Origin: Halapricum desulfuricans
GTDB taxonomy: Archaea > Halobacteriota > Halobacteria > Halobacteriales > Haloarculaceae
Direction of reading: 5' to 3'
Assembly: GCF_017094465.1 (NCBI RefSeq)
Contig: NZ_CP064791.1
Location: 248,001 to 312,000 of the forward strand
DNA length: 64,000 nt
The notes below the pieces were generated by a model. The model was not told where the DNA came from. It saw nothing but the letters and a program-made list of their open reading frames with translations, and made no database searches. Shown here piece by piece: positions 2-27,925 of the stretch; positions within the stretch are counted from its first letter, which is position 1, and every line of letters begins with the position of its first letter. A program made the position numbers and the translations under genes.

Positions 2-250
2 TACCTCCTGACGGAGGGGAACGTGATCTTCTGGGGTGGCGTCGTCGCCGCCGGCCTGCTGTTGCCGCTTGCGATCTCCGGCGGTCTGCTCGCTTTGGAG
101 TGGCGCTACGATCTCCACGAGAACCCGCGACTTGAACGGCTGGCGACCGCCGGCTACGCGACGAAGTTCGGCTTCGTCATCTTCGGCGGGTTGATGCTTC
201 GGCTGACGATCATCTACGCGGCGTTGAACGTGCCGCTGTTTGGAGTGTGA
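2..250 (+). CDS. NrfD/PsrC-type membrane subunit, C-terminal end only
   Basis: The reading frame is open to the first bases of the window, so only the C-terminal ~82 residues are present. Two hydrophobic helices are visible (around VIFWGG...LLLPLAI and FGFVIFGGLMLRLTIIY), as expected for the last transmembrane segments of the NrfD/PsrC family, the quinol-interacting membrane subunit of molybdopterin oxidoreductases such as polysulfide or DMSO reductase. The stop codon overlaps the start region of the next gene, a four-cluster ferredoxin subunit, which is the usual partner. The family call leans on that neighbour, because the piece is short; a catalytic subunit would be expected outside the window. 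Confidence 0.7.
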   Translation, partial: YLLTEGNVIFWGGVVAAGLLLPLAISGGLLALEWRYDLHENPRLERLATAGYATKFGFVIFGGLMLRLTIIYAALNVPLFGV

Positions 251-255
251 TTACG

Positions 256-1491
256 ATGAGTGACAAATCCAACTACGACGACATCGAGGACCGGGCCGAG
301 GAACGACTCTCACACGTCGAGTTCGACACCGAACTCGGCAAGCAGATGGCACGCGATGCCCGCCGCGTCTCGAACGACGAGCTCTCGCGAGCGGCCTTCG
401 AGGAGAAGTACGTCGACGACGTCCGCCAGGAGTTCGGTGTCGATCTGCGATCGGACAGCCAGGCGGACGCCGAAGCCACGCCGGGCGTCCCGCCGACCGA
501 GAGCAAGGCCTCCCGACGGGACATGCTCAAGGCGACCGGCGCGCTCGCGACGGGCGCGGTGGCAGCCGGCGCGGGCAGTAGCGTGGCCGGGGAGTTCGTC
601 TCCGGCAGTACCGGCGGCACGGCGGCCGCCCAGGAGGGCGGGGACGTCCAGATGGGGATGGTCATCGACACCACGACCTGTATCGAGTGTCTCCGATGTG
701 TCCAGGGCTGTAAAGAGGAGAACAACACGCCCGAGGGGCACTTCTGGCAGGACGTCTTCCGCTTCCAGCGTGAGGACAAAGAGTACGACGCCGCGCCGAA
801 CACCCTTGAAGGGTCTGACCCGCTGCAGCGTCCCTGTATGCACTGTGACGACGCACCCTGTATCGAGGTGTGTCCGAACAACTCCCGGTTCAAGACCGAG
901 AACGGTCGGGTCCTCTGTGACTACGACACCTGTCTGGGCTGTGCCTACTGTGAGGTCGCCTGCCCGTATCACGTCAACTCCTTCGTCCACGAGGGGCCGC
1001 CGGACTACCTCGCGAACCCCGAGGAGAACGAGGACTACGAACCGATCCTCGACGACGTCACCGCGGAGTTCGAAGACCAGAAACGCGACGAGGAAGGGCG
1101 CTGGGTCGCCGGAACGCCGCCGGACGGATCCTGTAGCAAGTGTACGTTCTGTGCTCACCGCGAGCTCGACGACGAACAGGACGGCTCGACGACCGCCTGC
1201 GAGGACGTCTGCCCGGTCGACGCGATCCAGTTCGGGGACCTCCACGACCCCGAGAGCGCACCCCGGCAGTACCTCCGGGAGACCGTCGGCGAACTCGACG
1301 ACGCGGAGGCCGGTCCCAAACAGTACATCGAGGAGTACCCCGACGAGACGTTCACCCTCCGTGAGGACGCATCGGATCCGAACATCATCTACGTCGGCGA
1401 CGACCTCTCGGATGTCGAGGTGACGGCCGTCCCCGGACCGACGACGAAGGATGACCGTGGACTCGAGGAGAAAGACCGAACGCTACACTGA
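256..1491 (+). CDS. Four-cluster [4Fe-4S] ferredoxin subunit with an internal Tat signal
   Basis: A PsrB/NrfC/DmsB-like electron-transfer subunit that would carry electrons between the NrfD quinol subunit and a molybdopterin catalytic subunit. Cysteine groups for four clusters are visible: CIECLRCVQGC, CMHCDDAPC...C, CDYDTCLGCAYCEVAC, and CSKCTFC with a later CEDVCP. A twin-arginine motif (SRRDMLK) followed by an Ala/Gly-rich hydrophobic stretch sits near residue 87, not at the N terminus, so an acidic ~85-residue segment precedes the export signal. A GTG nine bases upstream (247) is an alternative start; ATG 256 is preferred because it opens MSDKSNYDD. It overlaps or abuts the nrfD-like gene, so the two are probably co-transcribed. 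Confidence 0.85.
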   Translation: MSDKSNYDDIEDRAEERLSHVEFDTELGKQMARDARRVSNDELSRAAFEEKYVDDVRQEFGVDLRSDSQADAEATPGVPPTESKASRRDMLKATGALATGAVAAGAGSSVAGEFVSGSTGGTAAAQEGGDVQMGMVIDTTTCIECLRCVQGCKEENNTPEGHFWQDVFRFQREDKEYDAAPNTLEGSDPLQRPCMHCDDAPCIEVCPNNSRFKTENGRVLCDYDTCLGCAYCEVACPYHVNSFVHEGPPDYLANPEENEDYEPILDDVTAEFEDQKRDEEGRWVAGTPPDGSCSKCTFCAHRELDDEQDGSTTACEDVCPVDAIQFGDLHDPESAPRQYLRETVGELDDAEAGPKQYIEEYPDETFTLREDASDPNIIYVGDDLSDVEVTAVPGPTTKDDRGLEEKDRTLH

Positions 1492-1725: not shown

Positions 1726-2814
1726 ATGGGGATGGGGCGGCATCGTAACTGTGTAATGACACCTGAGCCGTCAGATTCCGAATCAGACACAGGCGTTTCG
1801 CGACGGAAGTTCGTCGCCGGCGGTGCCGCCGGCTGGGCGTCCGTCGCGCTCGCCGGTTGTAACGCGCTGAGTCCCGGTGACGACACCGACACCGAAGAAC
1901 CGACTGACACCGAGACCGAGACTGGCACGCCCGAGCCCCAGCCGGAGAACTACGTCGTGACCGACGACATTCTCGCCGGATCGGGCGGGTCCGCTCCCGC
2001 CGGTGCCGGTGGGTTCGCAGACTCCTGTTCCTGGACGCGGACGTTCACCCACGGGATGGAGCCGGTCTTCAAGGTCGGCGTCTACGACTCGAGCGGCGAG
2101 CAGCTCGGCAGCGACGAGATCTCCGTCGCGATCAACATCGACGGTGGTCCGACCGCCGATCTCGCCTGGAGCCAGGACGACGATCCCGAAGCCGACCCCG
2201 AGTGGAGTGGCCCAGTCTGGGAGCAGATTCCCGATGACTGGGAGACCGGCGAGACGACCTATACCGTCGAGATCTCCGACAGCGACGCCAACTTCAGCAA
2301 CGTCGGCATCGCGTCGGGCATGTTCGAGGTCGTCGACTACAACGACCCCGGCAACAACTACGTCGTCACCGCCGAGACCTACCACACGAGTACGCTCGGC
2401 GACGCCGGCAGCGGCAGTCAGTTCATCAGTAGCTGCAACCCCGACTACACGTTCGACTCGACCGGCTCGGTCGGCTTCGACATCGGCATCTGGCACGCCG
2501 GCAGCGGCGAGATGGTGACTCCGAGCGACGAGATCGTCGACTCCGCCCAGATCACCTTCCCCAGCGACGAGATCGACACGACGCTCGAACTCGCGTGGGG
2601 CGCCGAGAACAATGATTCCTGGTCGGAGGGGAGCCACGCCTGGAACGCCGTCTGGAAGGCCGACTCCATCTCGGACGATCTCAACGGCGAGTACACCTAC
2701 GAGGTGGAGATTTCGGGCTCCAACGAGAACCAGGAGTTCAACGACGTCGGCGTCTACCTGGGCTCGATCTACTTCGTGAACCCGAACGCTGACTCCGGCG
2801 GCGACGGTTCGTAA
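1726..2814 (+). CDS. Tat lipoprotein with two tandem homologous domains
   Basis: An exported lipoprotein of unknown function. The signal has a twin-arginine motif (SRRKFV), a hydrophobic stretch and a lipobox ending in LAGC, followed by a Thr/Glu/Pro-rich linker. The mature part contains two related ~130-residue units, each opening with NYVVT, carrying a SC pair, then an acidic W/D-rich strand region (LAWSQDDD; LAWGAENND), and closing with a YTVEIS or YTYEVEIS segment before a (FS/FN)(N/D)VG motif. The strongly acidic Ser/Asp/Gly composition suits a surface protein. TATA spacing supports ATG 1726; ATG 1756 (MTPEPSD) would give a more typical Tat signal length. No known family is recognised. 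Confidence 0.8.
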   Translation: MGMGRHRNCVMTPEPSDSESDTGVSRRKFVAGGAAGWASVALAGCNALSPGDDTDTEEPTDTETETGTPEPQPENYVVTDDILAGSGGSAPAGAGGFADSCSWTRTFTHGMEPVFKVGVYDSSGEQLGSDEISVAINIDGGPTADLAWSQDDDPEADPEWSGPVWEQIPDDWETGETTYTVEISDSDANFSNVGIASGMFEVVDYNDPGNNYVVTAETYHTSTLGDAGSGSQFISSCNPDYTFDSTGSVGFDIGIWHAGSGEMVTPSDEIVDSAQITFPSDEIDTTLELAWGAENNDSWSEGSHAWNAVWKADSISDDLNGEYTYEVEISGSNENQEFNDVGVYLGSIYFVNPNADSGGDGS

Positions 2815-2906: not shown

Positions 2907-3467
2907 CTACTCCGACTCGACTTCGTCTTTGATGTTCTGGAAGTACGTCTCGATGTCGCCCTGGATGACCCGGCTCAGGAGCCGCGCGCCGAGCCGGGCG
3001 ACGCCTCCGGTGTAGTACAGCTCCGCCGAGTAGGAGAGGTCGGTCCCGTTCTCGTGTTCGTCCATCTCCATCGCGGCGAGCACGTCGAAGTCGCTGCCGG
3101 TCGTCGAGTCGAACCCGTTGCCCTCCATGACGATCCAGTCCGGTTCGTTCATCTCGACGAGTTCGAACTCGCCGTCCAGCGAGACCGTCACGCGGCTGAT
3201 CCCGCGCGTAATCTCGCAGGTGTAATGTCGCTCGGAGAGTCGTTCGACCGACTCCGCGCCGGGGATGCAGTCCGCGAGGTTCTCGGCCCGGGAGATAAAC
3301 TCCCAGAGGTCGTCTTTGTTCGTCTCGATGGAGACCGTGTCCGCGAACTCCAGGCGCGCCTCCTCCTCGTCGAACGTCGACTCGCTTGCCATCTCCGAGG
3401 CGCTCGTCTCCGCCGTCTCTTGTTCGCTCGATACGTCCGTCTCCGGTTCGTTGATGTTGTCTGTCAT
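2907..3467 (-). CDS. CoxG-like SRPBCC-domain protein
   Basis: A 186-residue protein with an acidic low-complexity N terminus (about 35 residues), then a START/SRPBCC fold of the CoxG type: a strand-rich start, WEFISRAENLADCIPGAESVERL (the CoxG hallmark around the I-PG motif), strands through the middle, and a C-terminal helix with LGARLLSRVIQ. CoxG proteins bind hydrophobic ligands or anchor CO dehydrogenase to the membrane, but no CO dehydrogenase genes are nearby. Its ATG overlaps the stop of the upstream ABC permease by 4 bp, so it is the last gene of the transporter operon and may handle the same, probably hydrophobic, substrate (inference). Confidence 0.75.
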   Translation of the reverse strand: MTDNINEPETDVSSEQETAETSASEMASESTFDEEEARLEFADTVSIETNKDDLWEFISRAENLADCIPGAESVERLSERHYTCEITRGISRVTVSLDGEFELVEMNEPDWIVMEGNGFDSTTGSDFDVLAAMEMDEHENGTDLSYSAELYYTGGVARLGARLLSRVIQGDIETYFQNIKDEVESE

Positions 3468-4243
3468 GGTTGGTACGTTCCTTCCCAGGGTGTGAGTGCG
3501 TCACCGAGAATCTCCGTGCCGTGGACGAACAGCACGCCCAGCACGTTGATCGAGAAGACGGCGACGTACATCCGCGGAATCGTAAACAGCTGCCAGGAGT
3601 TCCAGATGACGTAGCCCAGCCCGGACTCGGCGGCCAGCATCTCGATGACCACCAGCAGCGCGAAGCCGACGCTGAAGCCCATGCTGAGCGAACTGAATAT
3701 CTGCGGGCGCGCACCCGGCAGGATGACCTCCCGATACAGGTCGAACGTCCCGGCGCCGTTGTCAAGTGCTGCCTCCACGTGGACGTCCTCGATCGATCGG
3801 ACGCCGCCCATCGTGTTGATCGCGACTAGCAGGAACACCGCCAGCGCCATGGTCAGGACCCGCACGGTCTCGGTGAGCCCGAACAGCGCGAACATCACCG
3901 GCAGCAGCGCGATCTTCGGGAGCGGGTACAGCACCGCCAGATGCGGGTTCACCAGTAGCCGCGCCCGGTGGGACCAGCCGGCGACGATCCCGACGGCGAT
4001 CCCCGCGCTCGCGCCGATCGCGGTCGCGAGCACGATCCGCCGGACGCTCGCGGCGGCGTGTGTCAGGAAGTCGCCGTCGAGATACAGCTCGGCGGCCAGG
4101 GGTAGCGTCACTGACGGTGGCGGGAAAAACCGGGGATCGAGTAGCACGCCCGCGGCCAGCTCCCACACGAGCGCGAGCACGACGAACGGGCCCAGCAGCG
4201 ACGGAAGCTGTCTGACGACTCTGGAGCCCGTGAGACGCGTCAT
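3464..4243 (-). CDS. NitT/TauT-family ABC transporter permease, first copy
   Basis: An inner-membrane permease of the nitrate/sulfonate/taurine class (SsuC/TauC-like, BPD_transp_1). About six hydrophobic helices are visible, with the EAA-type loop in the region GAGTFDLYREVILPGARPQIFSSL that contacts the ATPase. The ATG at 4243 overlaps the stop of the ATPase gene (4-bp ATGA overlap), which decides the start against an upstream in-frame codon at 4288. Length is about 259 residues, normal for the family. A second, sequence-divergent permease lies beyond the binding protein at 6408-7178. Confidence 0.88.
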   Translation of the reverse strand: MTRLTGSRVVRQLPSLLGPFVVLALVWELAAGVLLDPRFFPPPSVTLPLAAELYLDGDFLTHAAASVRRIVLATAIGASAGIAVGIVAGWSHRARLLVNPHLAVLYPLPKIALLPVMFALFGLTETVRVLTMALAVFLLVAINTMGGVRSIEDVHVEAALDNGAGTFDLYREVILPGARPQIFSSLSMGFSVGFALLVVIEMLAAESGLGYVIWNSWQLFTIPRMYVAVFSINVLGVLFVHGTEILGDALTPWEGTYQP

Positions 4244-5136
4244 TGTCTTTCGACTGTGCGCTGGACTTCGTCGCTCAATACGTCCCACACGCGGGTCTGC
4301 AGTTCTTCGAGGCGAGCGATGTCGAGGTTCTCGCGGGTGCGCGGCCGCTCGAGATCAACGTCGACGATCTCCTTGATGTGGCCTGGGCGCGCACCCATGA
4401 CGCCGAGTCGATCGCCGAGCTGGATCGCCTCCTCGATGTCGTGAGTGACGTAGACGACGGTCTTCTTCGATTCGCTCCACAGCGACAGCAACTCCTCCTG
4501 AAGGTACCGTTTCGTCTGGGCGTCCAAGTCGCCGAAGGGCTCGTCCATCAACAGCACCTGCGGGTCGTTGGCGAACGCGCGAGCGATCCCGACCCGCTGG
4601 GCCATCCCGCCCGAGAGCTGGTGGGGGTATGCGTTCTCGAACTCCGAGAGGTTGACCTTCTCGATGTACTCGCGGGCGATCTCGTAGCGTCGCTGTTTGC
4701 CGACACCGCGCATCTTCAGGCCGAACGCGACGTTGTCCAGCACCGACTTCCAGGGGAAGATCCCCTTCTCCTGGAAGACCATGCTGGTGGACGGTCGATC
4801 GCCGTTGGATTCGGTCCGGATATCGATCTCGCCGGCGTCGGCGTCCAGTAGCCCGCTGACTAGTCGCAGGAACGTCGACTTGCCACAGCCGGAGGGGCCG
4901 AGCAGACAGAAGAACTCGCTGTCGTACACTTCCAGATCCAGCCCCGATAGTGCCTGTACGTCCCCGTCACGGCCGGTGTAGGCCTTTTCGATGCCCGACG
5001 CGCGGATCCGGACCGATCGCTCTCCGGTCCCGGTTGTAGGCCCTGACCGGGAATCAGCTGTCTCGTCGGCCGTCGAACGCTGTGGCGATTCCATACGTAT
5101 GTCCTGCCCCGGTCCGCCCGCCGCCTGATCGCTCAT
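4240..5136 (-). CDS. NitT/TauT-family ABC transporter ATP-binding protein
   Basis: The ATPase of the importer. Walker A (GPSGCGKST) is at residues 80-88, the Q-loop glutamine at ~122, the signature LSGGM at 174-178, Walker B (VLLMDEP) at 194-200 and the switch histidine at ~232 (VTHD). The MVFQEKGIFPWKSVLDNV segment is characteristic of SsuB/TauB/NrtD proteins. An acidic, Ser/Thr-rich extension of ~40 residues precedes the nucleotide-binding domain. It overlaps the solute-binding protein gene upstream (5133-5136) and the permease gene downstream by 4 bp each, so the three are translationally coupled. Confidence 0.93.
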   Translation of the reverse strand: MSDQAAGGPGQDIRMESPQRSTADETADSRSGPTTGTGERSVRIRASGIEKAYTGRDGDVQALSGLDLEVYDSEFFCLLGPSGCGKSTFLRLVSGLLDADAGEIDIRTESNGDRPSTSMVFQEKGIFPWKSVLDNVAFGLKMRGVGKQRRYEIAREYIEKVNLSEFENAYPHQLSGGMAQRVGIARAFANDPQVLLMDEPFGDLDAQTKRYLQEELLSLWSESKKTVVYVTHDIEEAIQLGDRLGVMGARPGHIKEIVDVDLERPRTRENLDIARLEELQTRVWDVLSDEVQRTVERQ

Positions 5137-6320
5137 TCACACAGCGAGTCGGCCGGGAATCCCTCGGGCTGATCGACGGTCTCCAGCTCCGAATAGGGCT
5201 TGGGTGAGTTCTGTCCCCACTCGTTTATAGTCTCGACGGACGGTTTGGGATCGTCGAGACGACCGACTTCATCGAGCGCATCCTCCAGTGGCGATTCGTC
5301 GACGATCGCCGACGCGTCGACCTCCTCCTCGACGGTGCCACGACAGTGGTGATAGGTCTGCTGGCTCATCAGGCTGTCCGTGTTGATGCGTCCGTTCTTG
5401 TGCGGCAACGAGGGGATCGACATCTTGATGAGGTTCTTCGGGAGACCGAACTCCTCGCTGACGATCGAGGCGACCTCGTCGCTGGGGAACCCGCCCATCT
5501 CGTAGTACTCGCGGACGCCCAGCAGATACGCCTCTAGCCACCGCCGCGCGACCTCGGGACGGTCGTTCATGAACGGTTCGCCGAACAGGTAGACGCCGAT
5601 CTGCATCCGCGGTGCGAGCTCCGAGGCGTACAGCAGCCGTTCGGCGCCGGTTTGGTTGACCATGCTGAGGCCGAGCGGATCGGGAATGGCGGCGGCGTCG
5701 ATCTCGCCGGCGGACATCGCGCCTGTCATGTTCGTATAGAGGATCTCCTTCGTCTGGACGTCATCCCAGGTCATTCCGTTGCGCTGGAGGAGCGAGCCCC
5801 AGATGTACGAGTCGACGTTCCCCTCGCCGTGCAGCGCGATCGTGAAGTCCCCGGAGACGTCCGAGAGCGTCATCCCTTCGGAGTACTTCTCCGGACGGAT
5901 CAGGACCTTGTTCGAGGACGGCTGCCCGCGCCAGTACTGGGTCTGGTCGGCGACGACGCTGATCTCGACGCCCTGTGCGGCGGAGTTGAACAGGCTCGCG
6001 CCGACCGATCCGGTCGCCGTGTCGAGTTCGCCGCTGGCCAACTGCGGGGTCGCCTGGGGCGCGCTCTGGATGCGCTTGACTTCGAGCTCGATGTCTCGCT
6101 CCTCGAAGTAGCCGCGGTCTCTGGCGACCAACACCTCCGCCACGGCCGGGATCGTCAGCGTCCCGAAGCTCACGGTCGCCGGCCCGGTGTTCGATTCTGC
6201 ACTCGAACCGAGCAATCCGGTACAGCCGGCGACTCCGGCTGTCGCTGCAGTGCCTGCGCCCGCCAGGAACCTGCGCCGTGAACTCGATGCCCGCCCGCCC
6301 TGCCGATCACTGTCCGCCAT
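5133..6320 (-). CDS. NMT1/SsuA-like ABC transporter substrate-binding lipoprotein
   Basis: The extracellular binding protein of the importer. It has a Tat signal (SSRRRFLAGAG) and a lipobox ending in VAGC, then a periplasmic-binding fold of the NMT1/SsuA type opening with TVSFGTLTIPAVAEVLVARDRGYFEERDIELEVKR in outline. ATG 6320 is chosen over an upstream in-frame ATG at 6362 because the TATA element at 6374-6381 places the transcription start near 6350, downstream of 6362. Substrate cannot be read from sequence; relatives bind sulfonates, nitrate, pyrimidine precursors or aromatic compounds. Confidence 0.88.
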   Translation of the reverse strand: MADSDRQGGRASSSRRRFLAGAGTAATAGVAGCTGLLGSSAESNTGPATVSFGTLTIPAVAEVLVARDRGYFEERDIELEVKRIQSAPQATPQLASGELDTATGSVGASLFNSAAQGVEISVVADQTQYWRGQPSSNKVLIRPEKYSEGMTLSDVSGDFTIALHGEGNVDSYIWGSLLQRNGMTWDDVQTKEILYTNMTGAMSAGEIDAAAIPDPLGLSMVNQTGAERLLYASELAPRMQIGVYLFGEPFMNDRPEVARRWLEAYLLGVREYYEMGGFPSDEVASIVSEEFGLPKNLIKMSIPSLPHKNGRINTDSLMSQQTYHHCRGTVEEEVDASAIVDESPLEDALDEVGRLDDPKPSVETINEWGQNSPKPYSELETVDQPEGFPADSLCE

Positions 6321-6373
6321 AGTTATTCGTTGTCCTCTTTCTGTGAAACCACTGTGCTTCATATTTTAGTTTG

Positions 6374-6381
6374 TTTTATAC
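6374..6381 (-). promoter_or_regulatory. TATA box upstream of the binding-protein gene
   Basis: An AT-rich stretch reads TATAAAACAAAC on the minus strand. It predicts a start site near 6350 and an internal promoter for binding protein-ATPase-permease-CoxG. Confidence 0.5.
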
Positions 6382-6407
6382 ATCCGTCCCTGGCAAGTGT
6401 CGTCCGC

Positions 6408-7178
6408 TCACAGGACGACAGTCCGGTGGTTACCGGCGTGCCAGGGCACGAGTCGGTGTTCGATCGCGGCCAGTCCGTACGTGAACGTCATCCCCAGGAC
6501 GCCGCTGACGACCAGCCCGGCGTACAGGTCGGTGATGTCGTAGGACATCCAGGCGACCCACAGGAAGCTCCCGAGGCCGCTGCCCCCGGCGACCAGCTCG
6601 ACGGCCACGACGATCAGTAGCGAGGTGCTCAACCCGAGGCGTAGCCCCACGAGTACCAGCGGGAGCGATCCCGGGAGCAATACCTCTCTGAACAGCCGGT
6701 AGGTCGAGGTCGCGCCGTTGTCCCTGGCGACCTCGACGTGGACGTTCTCGATCCCGCTGGCGCCGTCCATGGCGTTCCACAGCACCACGAAGAACGTGCC
6801 GAGCCCCGCGGTGACGACCAGCGCGGTCTCGGTACTCCCCAGCAGGAGGATCACCAGCGGCAACAGCGCGATCATCGGCAGCGGGAAGATCGCCGCCGCC
6901 AGCGGCGAGAGAACGGCCTTTACCCGCGGGTTCCAGCCCATCGCCAGTCCGACGACCGTCCCCAGCGTCGACCCGCCGATCGAGGCCACGAGCGTCCGCT
7001 GGATCGTGACGAGTACGTCCGCACGAAAACTCGCCTGGGTCAGCAGCGCCGCCGTCGTTTCGACGATCGCCGCCGGCGGCGGCAACAGCGACGGATCGAT
7101 AACCCCGAACACACCCGCGGCTAGCTGCCACACCACCAGCGGGACGGCGAGCGAACACGCCTGATAGAACCGATCCAT
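6408..7178 (-). CDS. NitT/TauT-family ABC transporter permease, second copy
   Basis: A 256-residue BPD_transp_1 permease with about six membrane helices and the EAA-type loop (DNGATSTYRLFREVLLPGSLPLVL). It shares architecture and several motifs (LLPPPA, FPLPMIALLP, IENVHVEVARDNGA) with the permease at 3464-4243 but is clearly divergent. NitT/TauT importers usually have a single permease acting as a homodimer, so the presence of two next to one ATPase suggests a heterodimeric channel or two alternative transporters sharing an ATPase (inference). It lies between the TIG-domain gene and the binding protein, all on the minus strand. Confidence 0.87.
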   Translation of the reverse strand: MDRFYQACSLAVPLVVWQLAAGVFGVIDPSLLPPPAAIVETTAALLTQASFRADVLVTIQRTLVASIGGSTLGTVVGLAMGWNPRVKAVLSPLAAAIFPLPMIALLPLVILLLGSTETALVVTAGLGTFFVVLWNAMDGASGIENVHVEVARDNGATSTYRLFREVLLPGSLPLVLVGLRLGLSTSLLIVVAVELVAGGSGLGSFLWVAWMSYDITDLYAGLVVSGVLGMTFTYGLAAIEHRLVPWHAGNHRTVVL

Positions 7179-7204
7179 TCGTGTGCTGTGGGGCGCTCAG
7201 GCGC

Positions 7205-8638
7205 CTACTCGGTGATCTTGAACGCCATGTGCAGTCCCGGCAGCGGCCGGACCGGGTGGTTGTCGAGATACGAGAGATGCGGGATCAACTCGAAGTTGGG
7301 CTCGTCTTCCTCGACGTCGAAGAGGCTGGGATAGACGTCGATGAAGTGCCAGCCGGGCTCGCCGGCCGCGCGCAGCACCGTCTCGTTGATCTTCGCTTCG
7401 AGTCCACAGATGTACCCCAGCGGCTTGTTGTCGTACATGAAGTAGTACGCGTTCTCGTAGATCGGCCAGCCGACTCCCGAGAGCGCGATCTCGATCTCCG
7501 TTCCCGAGGGGCCGCTGGTCGGCGTCATCTCCGTGATCTCCGGCTGGAGCATGAAGCCGGTGACGGCGACCGATTCGCCGTCGATCAGTGCCGTGATCGG
7601 TCTGGTCGCGCCGCGGTCTTTCGGGATCTCGAACTCGAGCTGGAACGTGCCGTCCTCGTCGGTCTCGACGGACGGCAGCACACCCGGAACCGGCTCGGGC
7701 GTGATCGGGATGTCCTTCACGCGATGGCCCTCGTGGGTGTGCCAGACCAGATCGACCCGCTGTTCCGGTGGGAAACCGCGGCCCTTGATGACCGTGTCGG
7801 TGCCGGGCTTGCCGCTCTGGGGCGTAATCTCCAGTTCGGCGTCAGTCTCCCGGTCGGGGTCGGGCATGTGAGCCGAAAGCGGCGCTTCGTCGAACGTCGA
7901 CTCGACCCATGCAGTCTCGGGCTCGCTCTCGGGCTCGGTCACTTCGACCGACCAGGCGTACTGGCGCCCGCCCGCGACTTCGCCGAACGGCGACTGGGTG
8001 TTGTTCTGCAGGAAGGGCACGCCCCGGTAGTTGCGCCAGACCTGGATCTCGTGGGAACCGACCGGCCCGACCGCCCGGACCCGAGCCGTCGCCGTCCCAC
8101 GGTTGATCACGCCGGTCATGAAGCCCATCGTTCCGTTGTCCCAGGCGATCTGGTAGTTGTTCTCCAGCACGTTGGGGCCGATGCCGTATCCCGTGATCGT
8201 GAAGAAGTCCCCGAGCGGAGCCTCGGTCCGATCGATCTCGAACCAGGGCGTGATCGCGATCGTCGTCGCCGCCAGCGGCGGACCGTCCTCGCCCGTCCGA
8301 ACTTCGAGCGTGTGTTCCCCGCCGTAGTCCTCGGGAATTTCCCAGTCTTCCTCGAAGCGTCCGTCCTCGTCGGTCGTCGCCGAGAACGCCGTCGTCGTCC
8401 GGGGCCGATACTGTGGGCCGACGACCTGGTTTGCCTGCAGGACGCCCCACTGTCCCTCGACCGTCTTCCAGATCACGTCGACCTCCGTATTCGCGGGCAG
8501 GTTAAGCCCCCGCAGTGTGATCGTATCGCCGACGTACGCCTCCTCGTCGCTCGCGACGAGCGTGCCCGAGGCGGTCTGGTCCTCCCGCCGCTCCTGTAAC
8601 CTGTCTTTGACTTCTGAGGACAGCCTATCGTCTGCCAT
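7205..8638 (-). CDS. Duplicated TIG/Ig-like domain protein without export signal
   Basis: A 477-residue strand-rich protein. It consists of two homologous halves (about residues 25-235 and 265-470), each with a TIG-like domain (GTLVASDEEAYVGDTITLRG; LEITPQSGKPGTDTVIKG), a TDEDGxFxxxxEIP strand segment, then a second Ig-like domain with a conserved NY/AYYF...DN..(M/L)G(F/Y) block. No signal peptide, lipobox or transmembrane helix is visible, although TIG domains are mostly found in surface proteins. It is the first structural gene after two HTH regulators and precedes an ABC importer on the same strand. No specific function is recognised. Confidence 0.8.
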   Translation of the reverse strand: MADDRLSSEVKDRLQERREDQTASGTLVASDEEAYVGDTITLRGLNLPANTEVDVIWKTVEGQWGVLQANQVVGPQYRPRTTTAFSATTDEDGRFEEDWEIPEDYGGEHTLEVRTGEDGPPLAATTIAITPWFEIDRTEAPLGDFFTITGYGIGPNVLENNYQIAWDNGTMGFMTGVINRGTATARVRAVGPVGSHEIQVWRNYRGVPFLQNNTQSPFGEVAGGRQYAWSVEVTEPESEPETAWVESTFDEAPLSAHMPDPDRETDAELEITPQSGKPGTDTVIKGRGFPPEQRVDLVWHTHEGHRVKDIPITPEPVPGVLPSVETDEDGTFQLEFEIPKDRGATRPITALIDGESVAVTGFMLQPEITEMTPTSGPSGTEIEIALSGVGWPIYENAYYFMYDNKPLGYICGLEAKINETVLRAAGEPGWHFIDVYPSLFDVEEDEPNFELIPHLSYLDNHPVRPLPGLHMAFKITE

Positions 8639-8691
8639 ACGTCTCTATATTGGCACTTCAGGTAAAGACGCTTGGCTGCAATATACAGCCG

Positions 8692-8701
8692 TTTAAATAG
8701 A
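8692..8701 (-). promoter_or_regulatory. TATA-like element of the TIG/ABC cluster
   Basis: CTATTTAAAC on the minus strand, about 55 nt upstream of ATG 8638. It predicts a start site near 8668. A second AT-rich element (tatatt) lies at 8681-8688, so the exact box is uncertain. Confidence 0.4.
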
Positions 8702-8721
8702 GGAGGTTACGGCGGCCGCTG

Positions 8722-9093
8722 TCAGATCGGTTCGGTCTCCTGGATCCGCGTCGCACCGAGGATCGCGGACATGATCTTCCCCTCGGCTGCCCGTAGCCGC
8801 TGTGAAGCCGCTGATTTCGAGATGCCGAGATCGTTCGCGATGTCCGAGAGGTTCCCCCCGCGCTGTGTCGAGTAATGGCCCAACTCGTGGGCGACCTCCA
8901 GCGCTTCCCACTGTTTTTCGGTCACGTCGCTGACATCGATCGACAGGCAGTTGACGTCCTCCCGTGACGGGTCGACGATCGAGATCATCTTCACGTTCGA
9001 CTCCAGTTGTGAGTACTGGCGGACGACGTGCTGGAGGACCGACCGGTCTTCGACCTTCAGCGTCACGAACAGCGGGTAATCCGAGTCAGTCAT
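8722..9093 (-). CDS. HTH-10 (bacterio-opsin activator type) regulator, short form
   Basis: A 123-residue protein with a small N-terminal strand domain (LFVTLKVEDRSVLQHVVRQYSQLESNVKMISI) and a C-terminal HTH_10 domain: VTEKQWEALEVAHELGHY, then NLSDIANDLGISKSAASQRLRAAEGKIM. HTH_10 is a haloarchaea-typical DNA-binding domain found in Bat-like regulators. ATG 9093 (MTDSDYP) is chosen over upstream in-frame codons, which would add an unlikely Arg/Thr-rich extension. It directly precedes the TIG/ABC cluster, so it is a plausible local regulator. Confidence 0.85.
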   Translation of the reverse strand: MTDSDYPLFVTLKVEDRSVLQHVVRQYSQLESNVKMISIVDPSREDVNCLSIDVSDVTEKQWEALEVAHELGHYSTQRGGNLSDIANDLGISKSAASQRLRAAEGKIMSAILGATRIQETEPI

Positions 9094-9301
9094 TGCCCCT
9101 CTCGGCGTCTTCGACCCCGTCCGGTCGCTGTTGGCCGTTCGTTGCACCCTCACTGTTTGCCCTTGGCCGACTGCAAACCGTATTCACGCTCATAGAGAGA
9201 CATCTGTGTACCGACAGCGAGAAGATTCACCTTCATTTTACACTGTTTCAAGTACTGTCGACCCTCGATACCTGGAACGATTGATACGTTGGGCGACGAG
9301 A

Positions 9302-9976
9302 TCAGTCCATCGACCAGTGGTCGACGAGCTTGTGAATGAGCTTCGATTCGATCGATTTGAGCCGCTGAGAGACCGCTGACTTCGAGATGTCGAGTCGATC
9401 GGCCAGGACTTCCAGATCCGCCTTGCGGGGCGTCTCGTAGTAGCCTTCTTCGACGGCGACTGTCAGCGCCTCCCGCTGTTTGTCGGTGATGTCCGTGAGA
9501 TCCATGACGATCGACTCGCTGCTCTCGGCGTTCGACTGTGTAATCCCGTAGACGTCGACGCTCGAACCGACGTCGCGCAGCCGCTGGACGAGCTCCCGGA
9601 GCGTCTCTCGATCGGGCAACAGCACGGAGACGACGATTCGGTTGCCCTGGACGCGTTCGATCGACGGCACGCAGTCGACCTCGTGAAAGACCAGACAGAA
9701 ACAGTCCGACTCGATATCCGACTGGACGTATCGATCGGAGAACACACCTTCGTCCTCTTCGACGACGTTCGTGTGACAGGTCCCGTCTTCGAGGCTGTTT
9801 CCACCGGCCGACCGCGAGAACGTCAGGTTGTGGTCCTGAATATCGATGTTGTTGGCTTCGCTTACGACGACACAGTCGGCCTCCGGCGGCGGCTCGACCG
9901 CCAGTGTCGCTGTGATCGGCGGTCCCTCGGGCATGGTCGTCCCATGTGATTCGTCCGATATACTCTCGGGGCCCAT
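9302..9976 (-). CDS. HTH-10 (bacterio-opsin activator type) regulator, long form
   Basis: A 224-residue regulator. The N-terminal part (residues ~20-95) is Cys-containing (DCVVV, GTCHTN, DCFCLVF), the middle is an ACT-like strand segment, and the C terminus is an HTH_10 domain: ITDKQREALTVAVEEGYYETPRKADLEVLADRLDISKSAVSQRL in outline. It resembles the short regulator at 8722-9093 in its HTH. The Cys-rich N terminus could sense redox or metal, but no defined site is recognised. TATA at 10008-10014 supports ATG 9976 with a very short leader. Confidence 0.85.
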   Translation of the reverse strand: MGPESISDESHGTTMPEGPPITATLAVEPPPEADCVVVSEANNIDIQDHNLTFSRSAGGNSLEDGTCHTNVVEEDEGVFSDRYVQSDIESDCFCLVFHEVDCVPSIERVQGNRIVVSVLLPDRETLRELVQRLRDVGSSVDVYGITQSNAESSESIVMDLTDITDKQREALTVAVEEGYYETPRKADLEVLADRLDISKSAVSQRLKSIESKLIHKLVDHWSMD

Positions 9977-10007
9977 AGTTCTGGTAAAGAACACTTAGTA
10001 AGCTTCA

Positions 10008-10157: not shown

Positions 10158-10850
10158 TCACCGCAGTTCCGAGACCGAGACGAGCGCGTCGGCGGCCTCG
10201 CTCGCGGCTTCGAGGTGCTCGCGAGCGCGTCGCGGGTCCTCGGTCTGTTCGGCCGCCCGGGCGAACCGCAGCAGGCTTCGCCGGAGCGACGCGTCGGCCT
10301 GTTCCAGGTCGTCGCCGCCGACCGCTTCGCGTTCGAACTCCTCCTCGCGTTCGAATTCCTCACGGCGGGCCGGCGGGTCCGGGCGGCGCAACTCCTCTCC
10401 GGGGCTCCGATCGCGATCGGGGACCTCCGGCCGCTCGCGGCGCTCCGGCAGATCCGTCCGCTGCGACCGTTCGCGTTCGGACGTACTCTCCCGTTCCCGT
10501 CCTTCGCTCGGCTGTCCGTCCGTATCGTCCCGGTCCGTTTCGTCTGCCGGGTCGCGTTCGTCCTCCGCGTCTTCGGCCGCCGACTCGTCGGTCCCGTCGG
10601 TATCCGTCTCGGCGTCACCATCGTGTAGTTTCGTCCCGTCTTCCGCGACGGCCTCCTCACAGGTCGGGCAAAACAACTGTCCCTCGTATCGGAAGATCGG
10701 GTCGCCACACGTCTCGCAGTGGGCGTTCGTCATCGTCGCCCCCTTCAGGAGGAGTTCGCTCATCCGCTCGGTCGCCTCCCGCTTTTGCTCGTCGCGCTCG
10801 TACTGTTCGCGGAGCCGTTCTCGTTCGGCTTCCTCGTCGAAATCGCTCAT
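10158..10850 (-). CDS. Zinc-ribbon protein of the Sjogren/scleroderma autoantigen 1 family
   Basis: A 230-residue protein. The N terminus is helical and charged (SDFDEEAERERLREQYERDEQKREATERMSELLLKGATM), the hallmark region of the SSSCA1/autoantigen p27 family, followed by a zinc ribbon CETCGDPIFRYEGQLFCPTC. A long Asp/Glu/Arg-rich low-complexity linker (residues ~85-170) leads to a C-terminal helical segment. The molecular role of archaeal members is unknown. ATG 10850 is the family-like start; upstream in-frame extension is Gly/Arg-rich and lies across an inverted repeat at 10857-10883. Confidence 0.8.
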   Translation of the reverse strand: MSDFDEEAERERLREQYERDEQKREATERMSELLLKGATMTNAHCETCGDPIFRYEGQLFCPTCEEAVAEDGTKLHDGDAETDTDGTDESAAEDAEDERDPADETDRDDTDGQPSEGRERESTSERERSQRTDLPERRERPEVPDRDRSPGEELRRPDPPARREEFEREEEFEREAVGGDDLEQADASLRRSLLRFARAAEQTEDPRRAREHLEAASEAADALVSVSELR

Positions 10851-22273: not shown

Positions 22274-23941
22274 CTACATCATGCCGCCCATGCCGCCGCC
22301 CATACCGCCCATGCCACCCATGCCGCCGGCACCGGGTCCGCCTTCCTCGTCGCCGCCGGACGTCGAAAGATCACCGGCAGCGATGATGTCGTCGATCTTC
22401 AGCACGAGGTTGGCGGCTTCGGCAGCCGAGGACAGCGCCTGGGACTTGGCGTGGGCCGTCTCGACGACGCCCGCCTCGTAGGTGTCCTCGATGTCGCCGG
22501 TGAAGACGTTCAGCCCGGCGTTCTCCTCGCCGTCCTCGTGAGCGGCGCGGACCTCGACGAGTGTGTCGATGGAATCGAGGCCGGCGTTCTCCGCGAGGAC
22601 GCGCGGGATCAGTTCCAGGGAGTCCGCGAAGGCCTCGACGGCCAACTGCTCGCGACCGCTGACACCGTCGGCGTAATCGCGCAATCGGCGAGCGAGTTCG
22701 ACCTCGACGGCACCGCCGCCGGCCAGGACGAGTCCGTCCGCGACAGCCGCGGAGACCACGTCCAGGGCGTCGTTGACGCCGCGTTCGAGCTCGTCGACGA
22801 CGTGGTCGGTCGACCCGCGCAGCAGCAGCGTCACGCCGTGGGAGTTCTCGCCCTCGACGACGAACCACTCGTTGTCGGCCTCGTAGGTCACGTTACCGGT
22901 GCCGAGGTCCTCGGCGGTGGCGCTGTCGAGATCGGAGACGATCCGCGCACCGACGGTCTCACGCATGAACTCGATGTCGGATTTCTTGGCTCGCTTGACG
23001 GCCAGAATGCCCTCCTTGGCCAGCAGGTGCTGGACCATGTCGTCGATGTTCTTCTGACAGAAGACGACGTCGGCGCCGGTCGCCTTGATGTCCTCGACCA
23101 TCTCCTTGAGCTGCTGTTCCTCCTGCTCGACGAACTGCTGGAGCTGGGCGGGATCGTCGACACTCAGCTGGGCGTCCGCGTTGGTTTCCTCGATCTCCAG
23201 GGCCGTGTCCATCAGCAGGATGTCGGCGTTCTCGAAGTCAGTCGGCATGTCCTCGTGGGCGGGGTCCTCCTTGAGGAGGACGCCCTCGACGAGCTCCGAA
23301 TCGGCCGCGGTACCGCTGGCCTCGGTCGTGATGTTGAGGAACTCCAGATCGACGACCGAGGAACCGTCCTCGGCCTCGACGGTAACGTTCTCGACGGCGT
23401 CGACGATCAGCTGACCCAGCAGGTCCTTGTTCTGTTCGGCACCTTTCCCGGTCATCGCCGTCTCGGCGACCTGCTTGAGAATCTCCGTATCCTCGACGCT
23501 GACTTCCTCAGCGACGTCGTCGATCTGGCTGCGGGCTTCCTTGGCGGCCATGTCGAAGCCCTTGATGATCGTCGAGGGGTGGATGTCCTGTTCGAGCAAC
23601 TCTTCGGCGTTTTTCAGTAGCTCACCCGAGATCGACACCGCAGAGGTCGTCCCGTCGCCGGCCTCGTCTTCCTGTGTCTCGGCGACCTCGACGATCATCT
23701 CCGCGGTCGGATTGTCGATGTCCATCTCCCGGAGGATGGTCACGCCATCGTTGGTGACCGTCACGTCTCCCATCGAGGAGACGAGCATCTTGTCCATCCC
23801 CTTCGGACCGAGCGTCGAACGTACTGACTCCGCGACAGCCCGAGCTGCGGAAATGTTGTGACTCTGTGCGTCTTTGTCCTGCATTCGCTGGGAATCCTCG
23901 CCCAGAATCACCATGGGCTGGCCCTGCATTCGCTGACTCAT
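22274..23941 (-). CDS. Thermosome subunit (group II chaperonin), copy 1
   Basis: A 555-residue chaperonin subunit. Equatorial-domain ATP motifs are visible ([31 protein letters not shown]), and the C terminus ends in a Gly-Met repeat tail (GGMGGMGG...MM) typical of archaeal thermosomes. It assembles into the double-ring folding machine. The promoter at 23952-23975 is identical over 24 bp to that of the second thermosome gene at 26234-27925, which runs in the opposite direction. Confidence 0.95.
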
Positions 23942-26223: not shown

Positions 26224-26233
26224 AAGCTTGACT

Positions 26234-27925
26234 ATGGCTCAGCAGATGGGTAACCAGCCCCTCATCGTACTCTCGGAGGAGTCCCAGCGGACATCCGGGA
26301 AGGACGCACAGTCGATGAACATCACGGCCGGGAAGGCCGTCGCGGAATCCGTTCGGACCACACTCGGCCCGAAAGGGATGGACAAGATGCTCGTCTCGGA
26401 CACGGGCGATGTCGTCGTCACCAACGACGGCGTCACCATCCTTGATGAGATGGACATCGAGCACCCCGCCGCGAACATGATGGTCGAGGTCGCCCAGACC
26501 CAGGAAGACGAAGTGGGCGACGGCACGACCACCTCCGTCGTCATCGGCGGTGAACTGCTGACGAAGGCCGAGGACCTGCTCGATCAGGACATCCACGCGA
26601 CCGTCCTCGCACAGGGGTATCGCCAGGCGTCCGAGAAGGCCAAGGAGATTCTCGAGGACATGGCCATCGAAGTCGACGCCGACGACACCGACATCCTCGA
26701 ATCCATCGCCGAAACCGCGATGACCGGCAAGGGTGCCGAATCCGCCAAGGATACCCTCGCGGAACTGCTCGTCAACGCGGTTCAGTCCGTGGCTGACGAG
26801 GAAGGCATCGACACGGACAACGTCGATGTCGAGACGGTCGTCGGCGGCTCCATCGAGGAGTCCGAACTCGTCGAGGGCGTCATCGTGGACAAGGAGCGCG
26901 TCCACGAGAACATGCCCTACAGCGTCGAGGACGCCAACGTGGCGCTGCTCGACACCGCGATCGAGGTCAAAGAGACCGAACTCGACACCGAGGTCAACGT
27001 CTCGGACCCGGACCAGCTGCAGGAGTTCCTCGACCAGGAGGAACAGCAGCTCCAGGAGATGGTCGACAAGCTCGCCGACGCCGGTGCCGACGTCGTCTTC
27101 TGTCAGAAGGGCATCGACGACATGGCCCAGCATTACCTCGCCCAGGAGGGCATCCTGGCCGTTCGCCGCGCCAAGAAGTCCGACATCAAGGCGCTCTCGC
27201 GCTCGACCGGTGCCCGGATCGTCTCGAACATCGACGACATCACCGCCGACGATCTCGGCTTCGCGGGCTCAGTCTCCCAGAAGGAGATCGCCGGCGACGA
27301 GCGCATCTTCGTCGAGGACGTCGAGGACGCCAAGGCCGTCACGCTGGTCCTGCGCGGCGGCACCGAGCACGTCGTCGACGAAGTCGAGCGCGCCGTCGAG
27401 GACGCGCTCGGCGTCGTCGCCGTCACGCTGGAGGACGGCAAGGTCGTCCCCGGTGGCGGCGCGCCCGAGGCCGAGCTCGCGCTCGGTCTGCGTGACTACG
27501 CCGACTCCGTCGGTGGCCGCGAACAGCTGGCCGTCGAGGCCTTCGCTGACGCCATCGACGTCATCCCGCGCACCCTCGCGGAAAACGCTGGCCTCGATCC
27601 GATCGACTCGCTGGTCGATCTCCGCAGCCAGCACGACGGCGGCGACACGACCGTCGGGCTGGACGCCTACACCGGCGACATCATCGACATGGAAGACAAC
27701 GGCGTCGTCGAGCCGCTGCGCGTGAAGACGCAGGCCGTCGAGAGTGCGACTGAGGCCGCCGTGATGATCCTGCGCATCGACGACGTGATCGCCGCAGGCG
27801 ACCTCAAGGGCGGCGCCGGTGACGACGACGAAGACGAAGGCGGACCCGGTGCCGGCGGCCCCGGCGGTATGGGCGGCGGCATGGGTGGCATGGGCGGCAT
27901 GGGCGGTATGGGCGGCGCGATGTAA
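26234..27925 (+). CDS. Thermosome subunit (group II chaperonin), copy 2
   Basis: A 563-residue thermosome subunit, paralogous to the one at 22274-23941. It carries [23 protein letters not shown] and GDGTTTSVV for ATP binding, and ends in an acidic then Gly-Met-repeat tail ([13 protein letters not shown]...GGMGGAM). ATG 26234 is preferred to a TTG two codons upstream because of the TATA distance. Thermosomes of haloarchaea are hetero-oligomers of two or three subunit types; the pair here likely co-assembles. Confidence 0.95.

Follow-up and report, generated by a model that had tools for sequence, protein, structure and literature searches.

A conserved TIG, LIPO and CoxG gene set beside an ABC importer in Halapricum desulfuricans: a candidate uptake-and-handling system

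Results

Gene organization of the locus

We analyzed a 64,000-nucleotide stretch of the haloarchaeon Halapricum desulfuricans (contig NZ_CP064791.1, positions 248,001 to 312,000; hereafter the window), whose left end carries an ATP-binding cassette (ABC) importer together with a four-domain TIG protein, a CoxG-like protein, two HTH-10 regulators, a twin-arginine translocation (Tat) lipoprotein that we call LIPO, and a redox module (Table 1). TIG, LIPO and CoxG form a well-supported invariant core of this gene set in Halobacteria; other importers can stand in place of this one around that core, and the redox module belongs to the version found in the window. An earlier note, made from the sequence alone, had proposed the minus-strand genes as an unreported uptake-and-handling system. 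The co-conservation of the set and the lack of a known equivalent sustain this proposal in part; the core, however, is TIG, LIPO and CoxG, with the importer replaceable.

Eight genes follow one another on the minus strand (2907-9994), from the regulator with a DmsR-type N-terminal domain to CoxG, as the earlier note had described. The three overlaps of 4 bp that it reported between successive gene pairs are all ATGA on the minus strand (3464-3467, 4240-4243 and 5133-5136). The remaining gaps measure about 148 bp between the two regulators, 83 bp between regulator and TIG, 26 bp between TIG and permease, and 45 bp between permease and substrate-binding protein (SBP), so that a single transcript for the eight genes is plausible. 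The unit is nevertheless larger than the interval first proposed, since plus-strand genes of the same system (LIPO and those for the Fe-S, NrfD-type and double-2Fe-2S proteins) had been missed; they converge on CoxG and continue beyond the left edge of the window. Halapricum hydrolyticum carries a closely similar locus, with a TIG protein 94% identical.

The TIG protein takes its name from Pfam domain PF01833, which scores 24.4 bits against a gathering cut-off of 20.9 over one short stretch. HHalign aligns its two halves as homologues with 99.5% probability (E 4e-22), and a signal peptide is impossible because the stop-to-stop frame holds 479 codons; the duplicated TIG protein of the earlier note is thus borne out. 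The AlphaFold model shows four immunoglobulin (Ig)- or macroglobulin (MG)-like beta-sandwiches (predicted local distance difference test, pLDDT, 80), and the closest folds are the MG domains of complement and alpha-2-macroglobulin, with a large overall root-mean-square deviation and 9-16% identity. A sequence search of the PDB with the TIG profile returned chance-level matches alone (E 0.02 and above). About 100 residues are invariant across 33 TIG sequences and the N-terminal helix is conserved, which suggests surfaces for binding and not any active site of a known kind. The haloarchaeal protein would either act inside the cell or exit together with a Tat partner. A second TIG copy in this genome (G000:C1:1054908-1056338; L058 9402-10841) adjoins an O-methyltransferase and a hotdog thioesterase, a layout also present in three other Halapricum genomes.

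LIPO is modeled with an Ig/MG-like fold at low confidence (pLDDT 59), and its fold matches are therefore indicative only. The CoxG-like protein matches the COXG domain (PF06240) with 85.7 bits against a cut-off of 22.2, and its structural relatives include 2pcs, 8uds and 2ns9. A role as part of a CO dehydrogenase was considered and rejected: PF02738, the large subunit of Mo hydroxylases, has no match in the window's genome.

The importer belongs by domain to the NitT/TauT class, with a binding protein, two divergent permeases and one ATPase. Its Pfam domains all score above cut-off (NMT1_2 53.4, BPD_transp_1 62.4 and 69.7, ABC_tran 102.8 bits), as does HTH_10 in both regulators (58.6 and 70.9 bits against 23.1), DmsR_N being found on the second only. 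The two-permease importer, CoxG-like protein and paired regulators of the earlier note thus all stand. By contrast, none of the NCBIfam equivalog cut-offs for TauC, SsuC, SaoP, TauB and SsuA is reached (TauC 136.6 against 342, SaoP 109.8 against 295, taurine ATPase 219.9 against 357, SsuA family 67.4 against 163.5), so that the locus matches no known importer of defined substrate; such a match would have spoken against the earlier proposal.

On the plus-strand side, the NrfD-type subunit, a Tat-routed 4Fe-4S protein and a double plant-type 2Fe-2S Tat lipoprotein make up an outward-facing redox module. Tat and lipobox assignments were made by eye and from weak profile matches, and the membrane side of the exported parts is likely, as judged from signal type. 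The roughly 16 kb upstream of the NrfD-side genes encode no large protein that could be a catalytic molybdopterin subunit, and the genome's PF00384 (Mo-bisPGD enzyme) genes all lie more than 160 kb from the locus. A missing subunit just upstream was ruled out, the genes there being for queuosine/archaeosine precursors. PTPS/QueD, a radical SAM (QueE-like) protein, GTP cyclohydrolase I and QueC are encoded there one after another, in an unrelated archaeosine precursor cluster (L062 9049-11633).

Co-occurrence and versions of the gene set

Phylogenetic profiles were drawn throughout from one set of 391 Halobacteria genomes in 86 genera. TIG occurs in 24 of these genomes, spread over 13 genera and 4 families, and full-length LIPO occurs in the identical 24. 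Of the 24, 23 carry the CoxG subfamily, which is absent from G267 and whose gene has a stop in G305; it occurs nowhere else at comparable score: the best TIG-free genomes reach 183-190 bits, against at least 234 for intact core genes. These TIG-free matches are similar to the Mo-hydroxylase-linked CoxG genes from G161 and G165, genes that had themselves contributed rows to the search profile. For the SBP subfamily the count is 15 genomes; 14 carry TIG, and the remaining one scores 364 bits where the others reach at least 641. Fisher values for co-occurrence are 8e-39 (TIG with LIPO), 3e-36 and 2e-18; they are uncorrected for relatedness and overstate independence because relatives share ancestry. 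Another 77 genomes gave LIPO matches of less than 60 bits; these were discounted, nearly all covering only the signal or low-complexity start, with a few extending to model position 126-140. A search of plasmids with LIPO gave zero matches.

The strongest single fact for one system comes from genomes G317 and G359, in which all the parts co-occur although they lie at three unlinked loci: TIG-CoxG-LIPO (with a methyltransferase after TIG in G359), SBP-ATPase-permease-permease, and a second copy of LIPO followed by 2Fe2S-FeS-NrfD-type-FeS-NrfD. Conserved gene orders are found in families f1, f2, f7 and f4. TIG, CoxG and importer occur together across four families, so that a lack of conservation beyond close relatives, which the earlier note had named as refuting its proposal, was not borne out. 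The TIG tree does not follow the families: Halapricum TIGs group with family f2 at 100% support, and G165, from the same genus, falls in another clade. The genes therefore appear to have moved horizontally as a set, and repeatedly so.

We distinguish two versions of the locus. Version A, found in Halapricum and in genera g17, g32 and g82, corresponds to one TIG clade with the redox module, the deeper branches having moderate support. A full-length double-2Fe-2S lipoprotein is encoded by 10 TIG genomes, which make up this one clade; a search of 56 TIG-free genomes gave none. At version B loci the partners are DoxX (12 genomes), homologues of 4,5-dihydroxyphthalate decarboxylase (9 genomes), UbiD and Mo hydroxylase, and other importers take part, namely a second NitT/TauT type, an Fe-type and, by our reading, a Liv-type in G305. 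A decarboxylase homologue beside TIG matches 4,5-dihydroxyphthalate decarboxylase 9jp7 (E 4e-43), and UbiD/VdcC-like enzymes, XdhA/4-hydroxybenzoyl-CoA-reductase-like enzymes and O-methyltransferases also lie beside TIG elsewhere. A flavin-reductase-domain protein is encoded in 12 of the 24 TIG neighborhoods, some of them version A, with a copy on the window contig at 245282-245929. At two loci (L048 4116-8230 and L052 3531-9477) a Mo hydroxylase and a second CoxG adjoin TIG, and in L052 an XdhC-like gene adjacent to the Mo hydroxylase and a MobA-like gene, both identified by eye, are also present. In the window's own genome, at 2.04 Mb (G000:C1:2044134-2050547; L105), three decarboxylase homologues of this kind surround a putative Fe-type ABC importer; the partners in that cluster are those adjoining TIG in other genera.

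Outside archaea, a plasmid of Deinococcus sp. D7000 (CP058536.1; L077 14377-16359) encodes a full-length TIG homologue (27% identical); immediately ahead of it comes a single-domain homologue of LIPO, with a profile match of 40 bits. The two are annotated as hypothetical and carry apparent Sec signals, as judged by eye, which suggests that the bacterial form is exported. The pair is thus either old or a product of transfer between domains. Partial matches of 20-27 bits from a phylum-wide TIG profile search outside Halobacteria were judged to be chance Ig similarity.

Of the neighboring genes, the zinc-ribbon gene upstream of the regulators is conserved only within the genus in the sampled genomes. 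Two thermosome-like subunit genes (22274-23941, minus; 26228-27925, plus) lie elsewhere in the window on opposite strands, about 2.3 kb apart.

Table 1. Genes of the locus. Positions are those of the window unless prefixed G000:C1.
Feature	Position	Strand	Remarks
Double-2Fe-2S Tat lipoprotein	G000:C1:246081-246983, outside the window, upstream of the NrfD gene	+	Fer2 twice
NrfD-type membrane subunit, C-terminal end	2..250	+	Whole gene G000:C1:247228-248250; PF03916 107 bits
Fe-S electron-transfer subunit	247..1491	+	Ferredoxin_N, then Tat motif, then Fer4 domains; DsrO/ArrB/TtrB-like
LIPO, Tat lipoprotein	1726..2814, start probably 1756	+	Duplicated Ig/MG-like domain, one conserved Cys per domain
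CoxG-like SRPBCC protein	2907..3467	-	PF06240 85.7 bits; acidic N-terminal extension
ABC permease 1	3464..4243	-	TauC/SsuC-like
ABC ATPase	4240..5136	-	TauB/SaoA-like
NMT1/SsuA-type substrate-binding Tat lipoprotein (SBP7 subfamily)	5133..6362	-	NMT1/NMT1_2
ABC permease 2	6408..7178	-	SaoP/TauC-like
TIG protein, four tandem Ig/MG-like domains	7205..8638	-	2 x 2 internal duplication; conserved N-terminal helix
HTH-10 regulator	8722..9153	-	PF04967 58.6 bits
HTH-10 regulator, DmsR-type N-terminal domain	9302..9994	-	PF04967 70.9, PF24277 37.1 bits
Auto_anti-p27 zinc-ribbon protein, ninth minus-strand gene, upstream of the regulators	10158-10850	-	

Discussion

We propose that the region encodes a co-evolved uptake-and-handling system in which an ABC importer is coupled to the TIG-LIPO-CoxG core, probably for small aromatic-type acids, a proposal to which we give an even chance. 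The locus itself is real, a variant of an importer-centered system that is apparently undescribed. The importer would receive from the binding protein a small organic anion, for which an aromatic or heteroaromatic acid is the most likely kind, and LIPO on the outside, together with TIG, may bind or present the imported compound or its partner protein. CoxG could dock a soluble component at the inner face of the membrane, TIG being a plausible candidate, or carry a hydrophobic ligand or quinone. The docking and carriage roles have an archaeal precedent, as archaeal CoxG homologues have been shown by experiment to be membrane anchors for soluble enzymes, including the G3PDH of S. acidocaldarius (PMC11962113). 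The hydrophobic substrate that the earlier note had read from CoxG is accordingly one possible reading, but not the sole one. The NrfD module might connect the menaquinone pool with a redox reaction on the outer side of the membrane, and the HTH-10 proteins would probably switch the gene set on.

Several observations weigh against this proposal. The aromatic substrate is suggested by version B neighbors and is less secure for the window's own version A, whose cluster itself encodes no enzyme that degrades aromatics; the genome lacks a Mo hydroxylase of the xanthine-dehydrogenase type, and its decarboxylase homologues are found 1.8 Mb from the cluster, next to another importer. The binding protein has weak matches to solved structures in the PDB. 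The compartment of TIG is ambiguous, the haloarchaeal protein lacking a signal peptide that its Deinococcus relative has, and the redox module is lacking in more than half of the TIG genomes (14 of 24 have no double-2Fe-2S lipoprotein).

In a broader form, which we hold only tentatively and consider rather doubtful, TIG, LIPO and CoxG would be an unrecognized three-part accessory that several classes of archaeal importer have recruited, capturing poorly soluble or reactive aromatics and handing them over across the haloarchaeal envelope. In one lineage, an extracellular double-2Fe-2S ferredoxin would wire it to the quinone pool.

A primarily respiratory role is unlikely, though the best placed of the alternatives. 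In such a scheme, the NrfD, Fe-S and 2Fe-2S proteins with LIPO and TIG would perform extracellular electron transfer, the importer would bring in a cofactor or electron carrier, and CoxG would bind menaquinone. LIPO does sit in the redox locus where it is unlinked from TIG (G317 and G359), the genes for NrfD, the Tat-routed Fe-S protein and the 2Fe-2S lipoprotein are linked in 10 genomes, and one regulator is DmsR-like. However, the 14 TIG-LIPO genomes without the double-2Fe-2S module, the lack of a catalytic molybdopterin subunit upstream, with Mo-bisPGD enzymes elsewhere in the genome, and the catabolic nature of the partners at other loci all count against it.

Less probable still is an ordinary NitT/TauT importer that takes up a sulfonate, a nitrate-like anion or a vitamin precursor, the other proteins being unrelated and simply co-transcribed. 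The best scores of all importer proteins are indeed to Tau/Ssu/Sao families, and the three ATGA overlaps join only CoxG, permease, ATPase and SBP; these scores are nonetheless far under every equivalog cut-off, and an SBP subfamily that accompanies TIG in 14 of its 15 genomes, also where the genes are unlinked, disfavors the notion of unrelated neighbors. Salvage of a flavin- or quinone-like cofactor, taken up by the importer, carried by CoxG and used by the flavin-reductase-like protein, draws on the presence of that protein in TIG neighborhoods, including on the window contig, but is improbable given its absence from half of the loci and given that neither the PDB nor NCBIfam returned a known flavin- or vitamin-binding protein as a match.

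Many haloarchaeal importers and Ig-like proteins carry domain-level annotation only. Here, two unannotated proteins and a CoxG subfamily with matching presence and absence, even when partly unlinked, give a testable system with defined genes. It may connect aromatic-acid uptake, CoxG membrane docking and quinone-linked electron transfer in archaea, a combination we did not find described. In agreement with the earlier note, which knew of no pathway of this composition, we found no description of it in the open-access literature, subscription papers and preprints lying outside the search.

Comparison with known systems

Each part of the locus resembles a known system and departs from it. The importer shares its SBP fold family and its permease and ATPase families with the NitT/TauT importers TauABC, SsuABC and SaoXPA, but differs in its two divergent permeases, its sub-equivalog scores and its tight association with TIG, LIPO and CoxG. 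CoxG has the COXG domain of the CO dehydrogenase anchor and of the S. acidocaldarius G3PDH anchor (PMC11962113), in the family of 2pcs and 8uds; here, the genome has no CO dehydrogenase or other Mo hydroxylase, and its apparent partners are the importer, TIG and LIPO. With the NrfD-type quinone-linked Fe-S complexes (Psr/Dms/DsrO) the redox module has in common NrfD and a Tat-exported 4Fe-4S subunit, whereas a double plant-type 2Fe-2S ferredoxin lipoprotein is present here and no molybdopterin subunit lies nearby. Finally, the TIG and LIPO models show tandem beta-sandwich domains like those of alpha-2-macroglobulin, complement and other Ig-like proteins; they have no thioester domain, and at the identity level given above the likeness is one of common fold only.

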